Positions 1 through 5,261 of a DNA stretch of 10,508 nucleotides are shown here, piece after piece (the stretch's first letter is position 1; every line of letters begins with the position of its first letter). A program made the position numbers and the translations under genes. This stretch comes from Rhodanobacteraceae bacterium (lineage in GTDB: Bacteria; Pseudomonadota; Gammaproteobacteria; Xanthomonadales; SZUA-5): the NCBI GenBank assembly GCA_003233535.1, contig QIMA01000346.1, forward strand, positions 1 to 10,508, read 5' to 3'. The notes beneath the pieces were generated by a model. The model was not told where the DNA came from, did no database searches, and worked only from the letters and a program-made list of their open reading frames with translations.

Positions 1-377
1 TGGTTGTGGGTGCCGCCCTCAATGCAGATCCGGCTGGGCTCTTTCGCACTGAGCACAATCGGCAGCACGGTCTGCATCACCAGCATGGTGCTGCCCGCGG
101 TGCCGATGGCGAAATGGTGCGAGCCGGCGACCAAGGCATTCGGCGTTAAGGTCAGTTCAGTGCTGCGCAACTGCGCGCCGGTGGTGTCGGCGGCGCTAAG
201 CTGCGCAGCCGCCTGCACGCAGGTCAGATGCTGACGCATCAGGCCGGGTTTAGCGCGTCCTGCGCGAATGTTGCGCAAGTTTAGCGGTCGACCGGTGAGC
301 ACCGACAGCGATAGCGCGCTGCGCAATATTTGGCCGCCGCCTTCGCCTAGGGAACCGTCGATGTGGATGGTGTTCAT
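1..377 (-). CDS. rtcA: RNA 3'-terminal phosphate cyclase RtcA (3' part cut by window edge)
   Basis: RtcA converts RNA 3'-phosphate ends to 2',3'-cyclic phosphates through an adenylated enzyme intermediate, supplying ends that RtcB can ligate. Only the first 125 codons are visible. The ATG is at 377-375, and the protein opens MNTIHIDGSLGEGGGQILRS, the classic RtcA N-terminus. Next come the conserved RAGRAKPGLMRQHL (about residues 38-51), then FAIGTAGST and TVLP blocks and an EGGT-type motif at the edge, all matching E. coli RtcA from memory. The catalytic histidine lies in the missing C-terminal part. The start is preceded by a purine-rich but weak ribosome site (AAGAGA). It is the last visible gene of the minus-strand RNA-repair array, 174 bases beyond the stop of the preceding unnamed gene. 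Identification is firm; co-transcription with rtcB is inferred from order and strand. Confidence 0.96.
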   Translation of the reverse strand, partial: MNTIHIDGSLGEGGGQILRSALSLSVLTGRPLNLRNIRAGRAKPGLMRQHLTCVQAAAQLSAADTTGAQLRSTELTLTPNALVAGSHHFAIGTAGSTMLVMQTVLPIVLSAKEPSRICIEGGTHN

Positions 378-551: not shown

Positions 552-1268
552 TCAGGCCTTATTGCTCAATTTGTGCTTGCGCAATTCCTTGCGGTTGAGC
601 TGGCGCTTGTCGATGATTTCATAGTGTCCGAGCGCATTGCTGGTGGTTTGGATATCCATTTTTGCTACAGCCCAGCGAACTTTGCTCTGGCTTTCGTGAC
701 GGCTGATTGGTCGCAGCAAGCGCACGCGAAGCTCGAACCAGATCCCGTTCTCGCGCTGCAGCAATAGTTTGGGCGCTAGCCATCGCACGTCGCGCAATCG
801 CTCTCGCTCGGCTCGCTGTCTGTCCTGTAGATGCTGGCGATTTGTCTTGCGCTGCTTCCAGCGGAGAATACCGGTTCGTGGGTCTACATAGAGGCCCTCG
901 ACATCGCTACGCCAAGTCCAATCGTCGGGCCTGACTAAGCGACCGTCCTCAGTGCGTACGCAGTGCCGTGCGACCTCGCTTTTTACGTGATCGATCAGAT
1001 GCTGACCCACTGTCGAACGGCGATCGATTCCTTGGGATAGTTCGCTGTAGACCTTGTCCCACGGCCGATTGACCTGCTTGCGCAGCCAACGCTTGAGCGG
1101 ACTCAGGTGGTCGTCGAACCACTTGGTGCGATTGGGCAACGGTAGCGTGGGTTCGGCGAACTCTTCGCCATCCCAATCGGTAGTACGCAACCGCGGCAGA
1201 GGCTGGCGTTTGATGCGCATGCCCGACCGCGGCCGCTCGATTAGTACTTCGTGGAAATCTGCTCTCAT
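552..1268 (-). CDS. Unnamed basic protein encoded between rtcB and rtcA
   Basis: A 238-residue protein starting MRADFHEVLIERPRSG. I chose the ATG at 1268 because the N-terminal M-R-A-D...V-x-I-E-R-P-R pattern resembles conserved hypothetical proteins that I recall near RtcB or Ro60 genes in other bacteria (memory, not a search). The frame stays open to an ATG at 1355, which would add 29 poorly structured residues falling within repeat-like sequence. Visible features: RPWDKVYSEL (68-77), IDRRSTVGQHLIDHV (81-95), YVDPRTGIL (127-135), a long Arg/Lys-rich stretch (136-162) and a basic tail (221-234). There is no signal peptide or membrane segment. The strong positive charge suggests RNA or ribonucleoprotein binding, an inference only. 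Its place between rtcB and rtcA argues for a role in RNA repair. The ribosome site is weak from either start. Confidence 0.8.
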   Translation of the reverse strand: MRADFHEVLIERPRSGMRIKRQPLPRLRTTDWDGEEFAEPTLPLPNRTKWFDDHLSPLKRWLRKQVNRPWDKVYSELSQGIDRRSTVGQHLIDHVKSEVARHCVRTEDGRLVRPDDWTWRSDVEGLYVDPRTGILRWKQRKTNRQHLQDRQRAERERLRDVRWLAPKLLLQRENGIWFELRVRLLRPISRHESQSKVRWAVAKMDIQTTSNALGHYEIIDKRQLNRKELRKHKLSNKA

Positions 1269-1593
1269 GACTTTATGCGGCGCCTTAGACGCCGGTCCTT
1301 CAACTTTGAATTCGGTGGTTTTTCCAGTTCGTATGTAGCTATTGCGAGGGCCCATGGCCCTGAAAATCGTCGGGCACGCTCCGCTTTGCCCAACCTACGG
1401 GGGGGCGTGCTTTGCACGCCGGCTATTCCTTTCCTTGTGAAGACCCAGAGCACCGCGAAGCATCGAGTGCAGCAGTTGGCTGCGCCCGAGTAATCGAGCG
1501 CGGGCCACTACGGCCTACGCCAGAAACTCGGAGTGCGCCCTTCGCCCTTTCTCAGCTCTCACTGGCTCCTGGAACTGGCCACTGGCACTCGCT
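1269..1593. other. Intergenic region between rtcB and the unnamed gene, repeat-rich
   Basis: 325 bases without a convincing gene. It holds a CCAGT-type repeat block just after the rtcB stop (1551-1588), a perfect 7-bp hairpin GGCGTGC-TTT-GCACGCC (1404-1420), an imperfect palindrome with GTCGGGC/GCCCAAC arms (1369-1394) and a 6-bp hairpin AGGGCC-CAT-GGCCCT (1347-1361). None is followed by a T-run on the minus strand, so none looks like an efficient terminator for rtcB. No clear promoter was found. Confidence 0.55.
1369..1420. repeat. Dispersed palindromic element plus adjacent hairpin
   Basis: Read on the minus strand, 1399-1369 runs CGTAGGTTGGGC, then a GC-rich loop, then GCCCGAC. This is a hairpin with 7 paired positions including one wobble. 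It resembles the GTAGGTTGGGC...GCCCAAC repeats common between genes of many proteobacteria (memory). It abuts the perfect hairpin 1404-1420. Copy number in the genome cannot be seen here. Confidence 0.45.
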
Positions 1594-2820
1594 CTAACCC
1601 TTCACACAAACCACTTGCTTCAACGTATGCACCACTTCCACCAAGTCCTTCTGCGCGGCCATCACCTGATCAATCGGCTTGTAAGCTGCCGGTGATTCGT
1701 CGATGACCGCTTGGTCCTTGCGGCATTCCACGCCTTCGGTCGCTTGGCGATGTTGCTCCAGCGTGATCTCCTTTTTCGCTCGGGTCCGGCTCATGACGCG
1801 ACCGGCACCGTGCGAGCACGAGCACAGGGCTTCGTCATTACCCAGACCGCGAACGATGAAGCTGCGCGCGCCCATGGAGCCGGGAATAATCCCCAGCTGG
1901 CCTTTCTGCGCGCTCACCGCACCTTTGCGGGTCACGTACAGCTCCTCACCACCGTGCGTTTCTTTCTGCACGTAGTTGTGGTGACAGTTGACTGCGTCCT
2001 CGGTGACCTTGAAGCGCTTCGGCATGGCTTTTTGCAGCGCCTGCAGCGTTGAACGCATCATCACTTCGCGGTTGTTGCGGGCAAAACGCTGCGCCCAGTC
2101 GACCGCGAACACGTAGTCATCAAAGTGCGGCGAACCCTCCTGGAAATAGGCCAAGTCACGATGCGGCAGGTTGGCAATGTGGTTAGCCATATCGCGCTGC
2201 GCCATCTCGATGAAGTGCGTACCAATGGCGTTGCCCACGCCGCGCGAACCCGAGTGCAGCATCACCCACACGTCGTTGTTCTCATCCAGACACAACTCGA
2301 TGAAGTGATTGCCGGTGCCCAAGGTGCCCATGTGCGCCAAGTTGTTGGTCTTGTTCAACCGCGGATGCAAATCACACAGCCGCTTGAAGTCGGTATCCAG
2401 CTCGCGCCAGGCGTTCTCGGCCACGGTCGGCACCTTGCCCCACGCGCCCTTATCTCGCGCGCCGCCGCGATTTTTGCTGCGGCCGTGCGGGACGGCCCGC
2501 TCAATCGCGGTGCGGATCGCGGCAAGGCTGTCTGGCAAATCTGAAGCGGTCAGGCTGGTGCGTGCAGCGATCATGCCGCAGCCGATATCCACGCCCACTG
2601 CCGCCGGAATAATCGCGTGACGGGTGGGCACGACCGAACCGACCGTTGCGCCGATGCCCAAGTGCACGTCAGGCATCACCGCCACGAACGGGCCAACCAC
2701 CGGCACCCGCGCCAAATTGCGCAGCTGCTGACGGGCCTGTTCTTCGACCGGTACGCCGTTGGTCCACATGCGTATCGGCACGCCGTCGTGATCTTGCATG
2801 GTTTCGTATGCGGTGTTCAT
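1594..2820 (-). CDS. rtcB: RNA-splicing ligase RtcB (3'-phosphate/2',3'-cyclic phosphate to 5'-OH ligase)
   Basis: RtcB is a GTP- and Mn-dependent ligase that joins RNA 2',3'-cyclic phosphate (via 3'-phosphate) to 5'-OH ends through a guanylylated histidine; it repairs tRNAs cut by ribotoxins. The start is the ATG at 2820 (MNTAYETMQDHDG), preceded by a good GAAGGAAG ribosome site. That gives 408 residues, the length of E. coli RtcB as I recall it; the frame is open upstream to 2886 but those residues have no family counterpart. Visible metal-site residues: D78 and C81 in VGVDIGCG, H172 in GTGNHF, H189 in MLHSGSRG, H280/H281 in NCHHNYVQ. The guanylylation histidine is H337 in CSCSHGAGRVMSR, and the protein ends VVCVKG as expected. 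No catalytic residue appears missing. It lies 215 bases downstream of a terminator-like hairpin, so its expression may depend on read-through or an unseen promoter. Confidence 0.98.
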   Translation of the reverse strand: MNTAYETMQDHDGVPIRMWTNGVPVEEQARQQLRNLARVPVVGPFVAVMPDVHLGIGATVGSVVPTRHAIIPAAVGVDIGCGMIAARTSLTASDLPDSLAAIRTAIERAVPHGRSKNRGGARDKGAWGKVPTVAENAWRELDTDFKRLCDLHPRLNKTNNLAHMGTLGTGNHFIELCLDENNDVWVMLHSGSRGVGNAIGTHFIEMAQRDMANHIANLPHRDLAYFQEGSPHFDDYVFAVDWAQRFARNNREVMMRSTLQALQKAMPKRFKVTEDAVNCHHNYVQKETHGGEELYVTRKGAVSAQKGQLGIIPGSMGARSFIVRGLGNDEALCSCSHGAGRVMSRTRAKKEITLEQHRQATEGVECRKDQAVIDESPAAYKPIDQVMAAQKDLVEVVHTLKQVVCVKG

Positions 2821-3035: not shown

Positions 3036-3057
3036 AAAAACCACTGGACGACCAGTG
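3036..3057 (-). terminator. Candidate intrinsic terminator after the tRNA/small-RNA segment
   Basis: On the minus strand, CACTGG-TCGT-CCAGTG forms a 6-bp perfect stem with a 4-base loop, followed by GG and five Ts. The stem is short, so termination may be partial. It separates the tRNA-containing part of the array from rtcB, as would be expected if the RNAs are produced in excess over the mRNA. Confidence 0.6.
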
Positions 3058-3203
3058 TGCTGAGAATGCGTTCTGCTCGTTGAGCATCACGCCCGGACTT
3101 GAACCGGAGGCTTGCGCCCTTCCATGTATTCCCAGCGGCATTCGTACCCACTTGTTCTCTGTCGCGGTCTCCATCGCGCCGTTCAGGCGAATTCACGTAA
3201 ATA
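3058..3203 (-). ncRNA. Structured RNA segment with a T-arm-like hairpin (possible Y-RNA-like or tRNA-relic RNA)
   Basis: 146 bases follow the tRNA-Asp CCA and end at the terminator-like hairpin. On the minus strand there is a T-arm-like hairpin, TCCGG-TTCAAGT-CCGGG, at about 3107-3091. It is preceded by a GGC-GCAA-GCC hairpin placed like a long variable arm. It is followed by a hairpin GCGT-GA-TGCTC-AAC-GAGCA-GA-ACGC, whose facing GA/GA could form tandem sheared pairs. No 7-bp acceptor stem, D-arm or CCA could be assigned, so it is not a normal tRNA. Bacterial Y RNAs of the YrlA type carry a tRNA-like domain and sit beside rsr and rtcB in Salmonella, so a Y-RNA relative is one reading; a decayed third tRNA is another. 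Exact ends are unknown. I could not match it to a named RNA family. Confidence 0.4.
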
Positions 3204-3280
3204 TGGCGGGAATGCGGGGCATCGAACCCCGGACCTCCGGCTTGACAAGCCGGCACTCTATCCAGCTGAGCTACATCCCC
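3204..3280 (-). tRNA. tRNA-Asp(GTC)-like gene inside the RNA-repair array
   Basis: 77 bases with a full cloverleaf. Acceptor GGGGATG/CATTCCC (one G-U), D-arm GCTC/GAGT, anticodon stem CCGGC/GCCGG with loop TTGTCAA and anticodon GTC (minus strand, plus positions 3246-3244), variable AGGTC, T-arm CGGGG-TTCGATG-CCCCG, discriminator G73 and an encoded CCA. GTC and G73 fit tRNA-Asp. The loop has A at position 38 where E. coli tRNA-Asp has C38, an AspRS identity base, and the acceptor/D sequence is unlike E. coli tRNA-Asp. It may therefore be charged poorly or serve another purpose. It lies 6 bases after the tRNA-His-like gene. Fold and anticodon are read directly; function is inferred. Confidence 0.85.
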
Positions 3281-3286
3281 TGAATC

Positions 3287-3361
3287 TGGGGCACCCGCCG
3301 GGTATCGAACCCGGTTCTGCGCATTCACAGTGCGCTGCTCTGCCATTGAGCTACGGTTACC
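3287..3361 (-). tRNA. tRNA-His(GTG)-like gene with weakened acceptor stem
   Basis: 75 bases including the extra 5' G(-1) opposite C73, the hallmark of tRNA-His, and an encoded CCA. D-arm GCTC/GAGC with a short 7-base loop, anticodon stem GCGCA/TGCGC with loop CTGTGAA (anticodon GTG, plus positions 3328-3326), 4-base variable loop and T-arm CCGGG-TTCGATA-CCCGG. The acceptor GTAACCG/CGGGTGC carries an A4-G69 mismatch and a U2-G71 wobble, so the stem is weaker than in a housekeeping tRNA. Its first five bases overlap the stop codon region of the upstream 33-codon minigene. The histidine identity elements (G-1, C73, GTG) are all present. Whether it is charged and used in translation, or acts as bait or sensor RNA, cannot be read from sequence. 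Confidence 0.85.
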
Positions 3362-3458
3362 GCTGTTGTGGCGCACCAGCATAGGCTTGCCCACCAGCGG
3401 CATTGCGCACATCGGTCGCCGTTTGCGGTTGCGATGCGAAAAGACTGCGATTGGCCAT
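3357..3458 (-). pseudogene. 33-codon minigene resembling the N-terminus of Rsr/Ro60 (TROVE) protein; probable rsr remnant
   Basis: The first reading frame downstream of the candidate sigma54 promoter. The ATG at 3458 has a strong AAGGA ribosome site 8 bases upstream. The product is MANRSLFASQPQTATDVRNA followed by AGGQAYAGAPQQR and a TAA stop. From memory, bacterial TROVE (Ro60/Rsr) proteins of the type found in rtc operons start MAN-[KR]-xLF, then a T-D/T-V-N-x-A-G-G-x-A-Y block before the HALAQ segment. The match stops right after AGGQAYA, where the rest of the roughly 500-residue gene should begin and tRNA-His follows instead. The likeliest reading is a deletion that removed rsr but kept its start region. 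A functional leader peptide is the alternative. The ribosome site is intact, so it may still be translated. Confidence 0.55.
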
Positions 3459-3509
3459 GATTGTGATCCTTGCGTGGCGAGCGATGTCCCGCCTCTCACT
3501 TAGGACATA

Positions 3510-3524
3510 TCAGTAACCGTGCCA
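3510..3524 (-). promoter_or_regulatory. Candidate sigma54 (-24/-12) promoter of the tRNA-rtcB array
   Basis: On the minus strand, TGGCAC-GGTTA-CTGA. The -24 element is a perfect TGGCAC with the preferred following G, and the GG-to-G spacing is right. The -12 element reads CTGA rather than TTGC, so two bases deviate. Transcription would start near 3498, about 40 bases before the minigene ATG. RtcR is a sigma54 activator encoded divergently, which supports the call. Confidence 0.6.
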
Positions 3525-3656
3525 ACTTTTTTGAAACGACGTTAAAATCTTTTATTTCAGATACTTACCATATTTCATGGATTTTTCATCGACCGCTGTT
3601 AATCCGCTATTTGAATACTGAGATATAGTGTTTATCTATATTTATAGGACTTGCGA
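3525..3656. promoter_or_regulatory. AT-rich divergent control region; candidate RtcR binding sites and rtcR promoter
   Basis: This 132-base stretch is clearly more AT-rich than the genes around it. Three similar motifs, TATTTCAGATA (3553), TATTTCATGGA (3571) and TTTTTCATCGA (3582), and a partial inverted partner CTGAGATA (3618-3625), lie about 30-100 bases upstream of the -24 element, where enhancer sites for sigma54 activators are expected. An ATATAG/CTATAT inverted repeat (3623-3641) and a weak TTGAAT...TATCTA pair (3611, 3633) lie before rtcR. None matches a consensus that I know for RtcR. Confidence 0.35.
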
Positions 3657-5261
3657 ATGAACCCAAGCGTCGTCATCGGATTTTTGGGCACGCAGCTGGA
3701 CGCCGGTCGCGGCCGTGGTCGCTGGGAAAAATGGCGGCCCACCGTCAGCTTGGGTCGGTTCGAGGACTTCCTGCCCGAGCGCATCGAGCTGCTGGTCGAC
3801 ATGCGCCGCAGCACGGCGCTAGCGCAGCAGGTCAAAGCCGATCTGCTCGAAGTGGCGCCGCAAACCGAAGTGATCCTGCACGACTTCTTCGTCCCCGATC
3901 CGTGGGACTTCGAGCAGATGTACACGCGCTTGTTCGACTTCGTTCGCACCTACCCCTTCGATCCGGACAACGAGGACTATCTGGTCCACATCACCACCGG
4001 TACGCACGTAGCGCAGATCTGTTTGTTTTTGCTTTCCGAAGCGCGCTTTATTCCCGGCCAACTGCTGCAGACTAGTCCACCACGCAAGCAAAATGCGGAT
4101 TCACCGGGCAGCTACAGCCTGATCAACTTGGACTTGGCTCGCTACGATTTGATCGCCCAGCGCTTCGCCCGTGCCAGCGAAGAAAGCGCCCAGGTACTCA
4201 AGGGCGGTATTGCCACGCGCAACGCCGATTTCAATCGGATGATTGAGCAGATTGAACGCGTAGCGGTGCGCTCCAAGGCACCGATCCTGCTGATGGGGCC
4301 GACTGGCGCGGGCAAAAGCATGCTCGCGCGTAACTTGTTCCAACTCAAACAGAGCAAGCACGAACTGAAGGGCCGGTTCGTTGAAGTTAACTGCGCCACG
4401 CTGCGCGGAGACGGTGCCGGCAGCGCACTGTTCGGCCACGTGCGCGGCGCCTTCACCGGTGCTCAAAGCGAACGTGCCGGACTGCTCAAGAGTGCCGATC
4501 AGGGGCTGCTATTTCTTGATGAAGTCGGCGAACTGGGCGCTGACGAACAGGCCATGCTGCTGCGCGCCGTCGAAGACAAACGCTTCCCCCCACTCGGTGG
4601 CGACAAGGAAGTAAGCAGCGACTTTCAGCTGCTAGCAGGCACCAACCGCGACCTCACCAAAGCCGTCGCCCAAGGTCAGTTTCGAGAGGATCTTTACGCC
4701 CGTTTGAACTTGTGGACGTTCCACTTGCCGAGCCTGCGCGAGCGCCGCGAAGACATCGAGCCGAACTTGGATTTCGAGCTCGAGCGCTACGCCCGCAATC
4801 ACGGCGAACGGGTCAGCTACAGCCTAGAAGCGCGCCGCCGCTATTTGGAATTCGCCACCGGGCCGCAGGCCTCCTGGCCCGGTAACTTCCGCGACCTCGG
4901 CGCCTCGATCACCCGCATGGCCACGCTGGCTGAGCATGGGCGGATCACCGTTGACGTGGTTGACGAAGAAATCGGCAGACTGCACCGCAGCTGGGGTGAG
5001 TCGGTTCGCGAGAGCTCGCCATCGATTGCCGCTGCGGCGAAACTGCTGGGAGCTGACTGGAGCGATGTTGATCGCTTCGATCAGATCCAGCTGGCGCAAG
5101 TGATCGAGATCTGCCGCTCCTGTAAGTCTCTCAGTGATGCCGGTCGCACGCTGTTTCAAGCCAGCCGCGCGCGCAAGCAGTCGAGTAATGACGCCGATCG
5201 GTTGCGCAAGTATTTGGCGCGCTTTGGGTTGGATTTTGAGAGGATCAGGGCTGAGGGCTGA
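3657..5261 (+). CDS. rtcR: RtcR, CARF-domain sigma54-dependent activator of RNA repair genes
   Basis: A 534-residue enhancer-binding protein, close in length to E. coli RtcR. I place the start at the ATG at 3657, with AGGA seven bases upstream, rather than the TTG two codons earlier. Residues 1 to about 180 form the CARF sensor domain, with the RtcR signatures GRWEKWRPTV, NPW-like DPWDFEQMY, HITTGTHVAQIC (111-122) and SPPRK. Residues about 185-430 are the AAA+ domain: Walker A GPTGAGKS (214-221), the sigma54-contacting loop GAFTGA (264-269), Walker B LLFLDEVG (284-291), FREDLYARLN (343-352) and a WPGNFRDL sensor motif (407-414). The C-terminus (about 480-520) is the helix-turn-helix part. In Salmonella the CARF domain responds to tRNA fragments with cyclic phosphate ends. 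The stop codon falls inside the GGGCTGAGGGCTGAG repeat. It is transcribed divergently from the array it should control. Confidence 0.97.
   Translation: MNPSVVIGFLGTQLDAGRGRGRWEKWRPTVSLGRFEDFLPERIELLVDMRRSTALAQQVKADLLEVAPQTEVILHDFFVPDPWDFEQMYTRLFDFVRTYPFDPDNEDYLVHITTGTHVAQICLFLLSEARFIPGQLLQTSPPRKQNADSPGSYSLINLDLARYDLIAQRFARASEESAQVLKGGIATRNADFNRMIEQIERVAVRSKAPILLMGPTGAGKSMLARNLFQLKQSKHELKGRFVEVNCATLRGDGAGSALFGHVRGAFTGAQSERAGLLKSADQGLLFLDEVGELGADEQAMLLRAVEDKRFPPLGGDKEVSSDFQLLAGTNRDLTKAVAQGQFREDLYARLNLWTFHLPSLRERREDIEPNLDFELERYARNHGERVSYSLEARRRYLEFATGPQASWPGNFRDLGASITRMATLAEHGRITVDVVDEEIGRLHRSWGESVRESSPSIAAAAKLLGADWSDVDRFDQIQLAQVIEICRSCKSLSDAGRTLFQASRARKQSSNDADRLRKYLARFGLDFERIRAEG

Follow-up and report, generated by a model that had tools for sequence, protein, structure and literature searches.

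Why should complete tRNA genes be found among the genes with which a bacterium mends broken RNA? The question is raised by a single MAG contig (C26, in a 3.08 Mb genome of 606 contigs that is 80.9% complete), whose 10,508 nucleotides are called here the window. The original prediction was that two CCA-encoding tRNAs, directly behind a sigma54-type promoter and upstream of rtcB and rtcA, would be made when RtcR senses RNA damage, as replacements for cleaved tRNAs, as decoys for a nuclease or as bait feeding back on RtcR. The answer that we favour, in a judgement that is about evenly balanced, is that both are accessory tRNAs of the RtcR regulon, with a supply that would be induced by RtcR.

The operon and its promoter

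Judging by gene content, gene order and a promoter-like site, the window appears to hold an RNA-repair operon of the RtcR type, for which induction by RtcR is predicted. The rtcR gene (3657..5261, plus strand) codes for a sigma54 activator with a CARF-type sensor domain (PF06956, 249 bits) and scores 796 bits against the equivalog family NF038308, for which the cut-off is 650; its nearest relatives among the matches listed (84%) are in the MAGs L031 (Gammaproteobacteria) and L032 (Lysobacterales). Divergent from it, the minus strand carries in this order a sigma54-type site (3509..3525, TTGGCACG-N4-CTGAT), a 33-codon ORF that we read as a stump of rsr, the Ro60/TROVE gene (3357..3458), tRNA-His(GUG) (3287..3361, the gene proper being 3287-3360 and 3361 the G-1 position), tRNA-Asp(GUC) (3204..3280), a relative of the Y RNA YrlA with a short D arm (3049..3148), the RNA ligase gene rtcB (1594..2820, PF01139 426 bits), a gene for a protein of unnamed function (552..1355) and the 5' part of rtcA (1..374), which was detected by tblastn with the rtcA of L210 and continues beyond the window start. 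The rtcB start at 2820 was chosen by sequence reading, the longest ORF beginning at 2886. Order, strand and promoter-like motif are thus as originally described, with the tRNAs, rtcB and rtcA all opposite rtcR. The tRNAs are not directly behind the promoter, since the rsr stump intervenes, and although they do precede rtcB, the Y-RNA relative between tRNA-Asp and rtcB had gone unmentioned.

The protein encoded at 552..1355 (238 or 267 aa) gave zero Pfam or NCBIfam matches in a profile search. A protein search gave 231 matches at E <= 0.001, counting the protein itself, and relatives of it occur near rtcB in L031, L032 and L034-L036. An intergenic repeat of about 28 nt, AGTTCCAGTAGCCAGTGCCAGTGGCCAG, is located at 434-461, 1561-1589 and 2892-2932, in both orientations around the operon genes.

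The sigma54-like site has a perfect -24 part, and its -12 GC reads GA. An equivalent site with GA at -12 was found in L031, L032, L034, L035 and L036, five of the six nearest relatives examined, the exception being L033, where the pattern gave no match; over the 80 named loci a sigma54-type pattern lies within 600 nt of rtcR in 75. A crude scan of the tRNA strand between 2780 and 3680 gave zero sigma70-type promoters, and the single terminator-like site around the tRNAs was at the end of the Y RNA. The same scan detected a sigma70-type promoter ahead of the housekeeping cluster that contains tRNA-His (L012), and this difference is one of the reasons for reading the operon tRNAs as accessory. 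At the housekeeping Val-Asp pair it found a terminator after Asp and no promoter before the pair, so that it must miss some promoters. We infer that the window tRNAs are co-transcribed from the RtcR promoter.

Position before rtcB is also what would be expected if the same nuclease attacked the leader tRNAs and the resulting 5' halves fed or tuned RtcR, or if their folding or processing set rtcB expression, and it is documented, in the part of the paper that we draw on, that RtcR of Salmonella responds to damaged tRNA (PMC7790460). No observation singles out such a feedback, and in the genomes G1167 and G768, described below, the tRNAs are behind rtcB and rtcA and not in a leader; we hold it to be very improbable.

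Two tRNAs in a Y-RNA slot

ARAGORN finds exactly two tRNA genes in the window, Asp(GTC) and His(GTG), both on the minus strand, and they score 64.3 and 56.2 bits with Rfam RF00005 (cut-off 29). Both encode CCA, as the original prediction had it, both have their anticodon, and their acceptor stems have 6-7 pairs. The tRNA-His has G-1 and C73 and the tRNA-Asp has G73, which we take to be marks for the respective synthetases. Two features count against full tRNA quality, and with it against an accessory role: an A4-G69 mismatch in tRNA-His, and A38 in tRNA-Asp where the housekeeping gene has C38. On balance the tRNAs are intact and keep their fold, their anticodon, CCA and the main synthetase marks, and charging and use in translation are predicted.

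The caveat attached to the original prediction, that these might be the only His and Asp genes of the genome, was checked and does not apply: a separate tRNA-His is found in a six-gene cluster (C224) and a separate tRNA-Asp beside tRNA-Val (C91). The operon genes are not recent copies of these either, being just 74% identical to them (56/76 positions for tRNA-His, 58/78 for tRNA-Asp). As a reference, ten matched housekeeping tRNAs were 91-100% identical between this genome (G000) and its congener G045, in a comparison that omits one divergent Leu(CAG) pair and the Met pairs, whose types are unmatched; the housekeeping tRNA-Asp of G045 was not found. That the two tRNAs are intact and yet so far from the housekeeping genes argues for accessory tRNAs. 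So does the conservation of the operon tRNA-Asp, which is identical to that of G045 at 63/77 positions. The 14 substitutions, 4 of them in stems, leave 21/21 pairs, the anticodon and GCCA unchanged. Among 20,000 uniform random placements of the substitutions, a share of 0.0004 retained equally many pairs, a control that is generous because all four stem changes are transitions.

The surroundings of the tRNAs are best understood by comparison with the rsr-yrlBA-rtcBA operon of Salmonella, which in the portion of the source used here (PMC7790460) has the same regulator and a sigma54-type promoter, begins with rsr and continues through Y RNAs to rtcB and rtcA. The window differs from it in that rsr is reduced to a stump and the Y-RNA slot holds two intact tRNAs together with one Y-RNA relative. 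By eye, the 33-codon ORF starts (MANRSLFASQPQTATDVRNAAGGQAYAG) like the rsr of L032/G045 (MANRTLFNSRPQALTDTVNQAGGAAYAL), from which it follows that most of the window rsr is gone. The stop codon of the stump and the first positions of tRNA-His overlap. These 33 codons are all that the operon holds of a full-length Rsr/Ro60 (TROVE plus vWA), and PF05731 had zero matches in the 81%-complete genome. The same profile also missed G045, whose rsr is detected by tblastn, so that a copy elsewhere in the window genome is possible. With most of its rsr gone the operon may be in decay, which counts against an accessory role of its tRNAs. It also counts against this role that the window is one MAG contig, in which the junction at the rsr stump might be an assembly error.

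With the Rfam YrlA model (RF02553) the segment 3042-3148 reaches 20.2 bits, far from the gathering cut-off of 69. With a covariance model that we built from 24 rtc-operon Y RNAs, all from loci outside the genus, the window Y RNA scores 37.2 bits (E 8.9e-8), and we therefore regard it as a divergent relative. The model found three Y RNAs in L032 (31.1, 29.5 and 21.1 bits) and no Y RNA in L031/G038. It also matches, with 24.7 bits, the junction of the window tRNAs formed by the His T arm and the Asp D arm, because in Y RNAs, too, a D arm comes after a T arm. With the rsr stump before them and the Y-RNA relative after them, the tRNAs occupy the Y-RNA slot; stump, Y RNA and slot had all been missed originally. 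In L032/G045, rsr (which contains a stretch of Ns) is followed by Y RNA, tRNA-Asp, Y RNA, a short Y RNA and rtcB. In the third member of the genus, L031/G038, rtcB comes directly behind the promoter, without rsr and without tRNA, which counts against an accessory role. Two of the three genus members thus have tRNAs in the rtc operon. In L151, L157, L153 and other loci there are tandem Y RNAs between rsr and rtcB, and the D arm of one Y RNA may be scored as a split tRNA with the T arm of the Y RNA that follows (L157, 149 nt; L153), which suggests a way in which one kind of RNA might pass into the other.

Residence in this slot and the match at the His-Asp junction are also what one would see if the tRNAs behaved like the tRNA-mimicking Y RNAs, as nuclease decoys or handles for enzymes, outside translation. 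In the text available of Hughes et al. (PMC7790460), YrlA is itself suggested as a possible anticodon-nuclease inhibitor. A decoy has no need of CCA, of G-1/C73 or of an intact anticodon, yet all have been kept, and a full rsr, the usual partner of Y RNAs, is missing from the window. For these reasons we consider a decoy or scaffold function rather unlikely.

tRNAs in other rtcR loci

We compared 158 distinct rtcR loci including the window, consisting of the 80 nearest by RtcR among the matches listed plus further draws from the order, class and phylum of the window and from the order of G768, after removal of repeated loci (same 250 nt). An rtcB gene was found in 139. Within 6 kb on the operon side ARAGORN gave 63 hits on the operon strand (40 loci) and 3 antisense (3 loci), a difference with a sign-test value of 6.5e-16 if kinship of the loci is ignored. 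Most of the 63 are tRNA-like RNAs. By our judgement the loci with rtcB and intact tRNAs are four of the 139, namely the window, L032, L210 (G768) and L236 (G1167), a figure that omits L251 (no rtcB match, see below) and counts the operon tRNA-His of L210 and L236 although ARAGORN trimmed their CCA. L069 and L094 (Pro), L096 (Trp), L201 (Thr) and L308 (Met) pass a crude filter for the D-loop GG, but we assigned them to the tRNA-like groups. Such rarity counts against an accessory role. Four loci are so close to the three antisense ones that chance could account for the locus count by itself, and the case for intact operon tRNAs rests on conservation and context.

Such tRNA-like RNAs are otherwise common in rtc operons and have partly been described already. 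Operon-strand ARAGORN hits are present in 27 of the 34 loci with a band-7 gene, and at the head of many of these operons the RNAs lack CCA or have a 5-bp acceptor, which speaks for decoys or scaffolds. In L055, L070, L073, L075, L079, L087, L100, L106 and L108 the head RNA is about 330-440 nt from rtcR. Burroughs and Aravind 2016 reportedly mention, in their abstract, a tRNA-like molecule in band-7 (SPFH) rtc operons, and presumably these are the same RNAs. The window shares with them a tRNA-shaped RNA gene at the operon head. The band-7 RNAs have an acceptor of about 5 bp, mostly no CCA, and an anticodon that varies between species, which rules them out as equals of the window tRNAs; these are intact, with CCA and 6-7 acceptor pairs, and no band-7 match was found in the window operon. 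A second group has CCA-encoding genes like tRNA-Pro(UGG), placed after the promoter and before rsr or rtcB, about 245-340 nt from rtcR. It comprises seven loci (L069, L084, L085, L086, L094, L098 and L222), six of which are from Sphingomonas, Sphingobium or Sandaracinobacteroides. As equals of the window tRNAs the sphingomonad genes are doubtful: they keep CCA, but by eye their D loop is without the usual GG, a crude test that two of the tRNA-Pro(UGG)-like genes pass.

The largest set of intact tRNAs is found in G1167 (L236, C44:85800-95450), where rtcB and rtcA are followed by tRNAs for Asn, His, Gln, Cys, Pro, Lys and Leu and by the gene of an HNH protein. Beyond the HNH gene there are a tRNA-like RNA, band-7, a CCA-adding enzyme and RlaP, and farther on a second RlaP and a second RtcB. 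Compared with the housekeeping isoacceptors of their own genome, the seven tRNAs show 61-76% identity, and their place between rtcA and the HNH, band-7, CCA-adding and RlaP genes is a further argument for accessory tRNAs in the window. This large repair locus (L236 and L303) also holds an uncharacterised 314-aa protein. G768 (L210) belongs to another family and has Asn (5 differences in 75) and His in common with G1167. The tRNAs start about 720 nt (G1167) and 880 nt (G768) behind the rtcA match, so that they may have a promoter of their own, a point against the accessory reading; they and the window tRNAs look like separate acquisitions. Colicin E5 cuts tRNAs with GUN anticodons, and the His and Asp of the window and the Asn and His of G768 all belong to this class; the idea of a GUN rule was dropped since G1167 also has Gln, Cys, Pro, Lys and Leu.

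G1166 has two RtcR proteins. The first is accompanied by rtcB and rtcA (L239). The second (L251, C57:60100-69800; PF06956 194 bits) has no rtcB match on its operon side and faces a sigma54-type site, TTGGCACGAGCCCTGCA, at 787-803. The whole arrangement covers 787-2516; after the site comes an array of six tRNA genes with tRNA-Ser, a GOLLD RNA (180.7 bits, cut-off 150) that contains tRNA-Ile, and tRNA-Leu, -Pro, -Trp and -Gln, the tRNA-Ser being found by ARAGORN only. By eye a terminator-like stem with a T run precedes tRNA-Ser, which makes read-through into the array uncertain. The arrangement hints at a possible cue for GOLLD RNA; our literature search gave no paper joining GOLLD, tRNA and RtcR. 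The genes flanking L251 look, by eye, chromosomal and not phage-derived.

Another explanation to be weighed is that the tRNAs are passengers without a part in RNA repair, which arrived with a phage or other mobile element or through recombination at Y-RNA sequences that resemble tRNA. This would suit their patchy presence in the genus, the closeness of the intact-tRNA and antisense locus counts (4 and 3), the phage relatives of tRNA-Asp (37 records, 20 covering at least 80%) and the best order-level match to tRNA-His (88% over 49 nt), which is in a nine-tRNA array adjoining phage tail genes in G076. The window tRNAs have in common with phage-borne tRNA sets that they are divergent, intact and extra, and parts of both have phage relatives, but their setting is an operon of the RtcR type, and the Pfam search recognised no phage gene in the window. 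None of the 6 phage records for tRNA-His covers 80%. Against mere passengers there are also the tRNA-Asp with all its pairs at the same operon place in two species, the intact rtc-locus tRNAs of the separate lineages G768 and G1167, with Asn and His genes common across families, and the second RtcR of G1166 that faces a tRNA array. We find it unlikely that the tRNAs are passengers.

A possible replacement role for operon tRNAs

If the window tRNAs are accessory, the mechanism would be as follows. RtcR senses the ends of cleaved tRNAs and activates the operon transcript, from which RtcB and RtcA are made. Ordinary tRNA processing of the same transcript would release His and Asp tRNAs with bodies unlike the housekeeping ones, with which the cell would go on decoding His and Asp codons while RtcB religates the cut tRNAs, or in place of religation. 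The logic of replacement is plainer in the relatives, where several accessory tRNAs stand near a CCA-adding enzyme in the rtc locus. Of the three roles originally guessed, replacement gains most from these relatives, above all from the seven tRNAs of G1167, while decoy and bait stay as the rivals considered above.

A precedent exists in Anabaena, where a silent operon of 26 tRNAs and rtcB are held by one repressor and freed by translational stress (PMC10272220, as far as our extract of it goes). Together with the response of RtcR to tRNA damage (PMC7790460, in the part used here), this favours accessory tRNAs in the window. The trn operon/TrcR system shares with the window the combination of accessory tRNAs and rtcB under one stress and one regulator. 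The differences, in the same extract, are that the 26 tRNAs are plasmid-borne, that rtcB is located apart from them, that the repressor belongs to a different family and that a homologue of RtcR is absent (PMC10272220); the window has two tRNAs, and the adjacent regulator is RtcR.

More tentatively, and as a possibility that we would put somewhat short of even, RtcR signalling in several proteobacterial lineages may have an arm for tRNA replacement, in which divergent accessory tRNAs are switched on by RtcR along with the repair enzymes (the window, G045, G768 and G1167) or from a separate RtcR-linked locus with a GOLLD RNA (G1166), so that cells would both mend and replace tRNAs cut by nucleases. 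If this were true, RtcB operons, seen until now as repair systems, would have a sensor that also makes substitute tRNAs, bacterial RNA repair would be connected with the use of extra tRNAs by phages and by the Anabaena trn operon, and the existence of some accessory tRNAs would be explained. It also becomes testable whether the tRNAs of the operon survive the nucleases by which the response is triggered. Among the titles and abstracts that our literature search covered, which did not extend to Burroughs and Aravind 2016, none dealt with intact tRNA genes in operons under RtcR; we claim no priority.

A minor observation concerns another locus of G045 (L187, G045:C241), where positions 1411-1574 hold a tandem of tRNA-Leu(GAG) and tRNA-Leu(CAG) of just 77 nt, with short variable arms, that are unlike the other tRNA-Leu genes of that genome.
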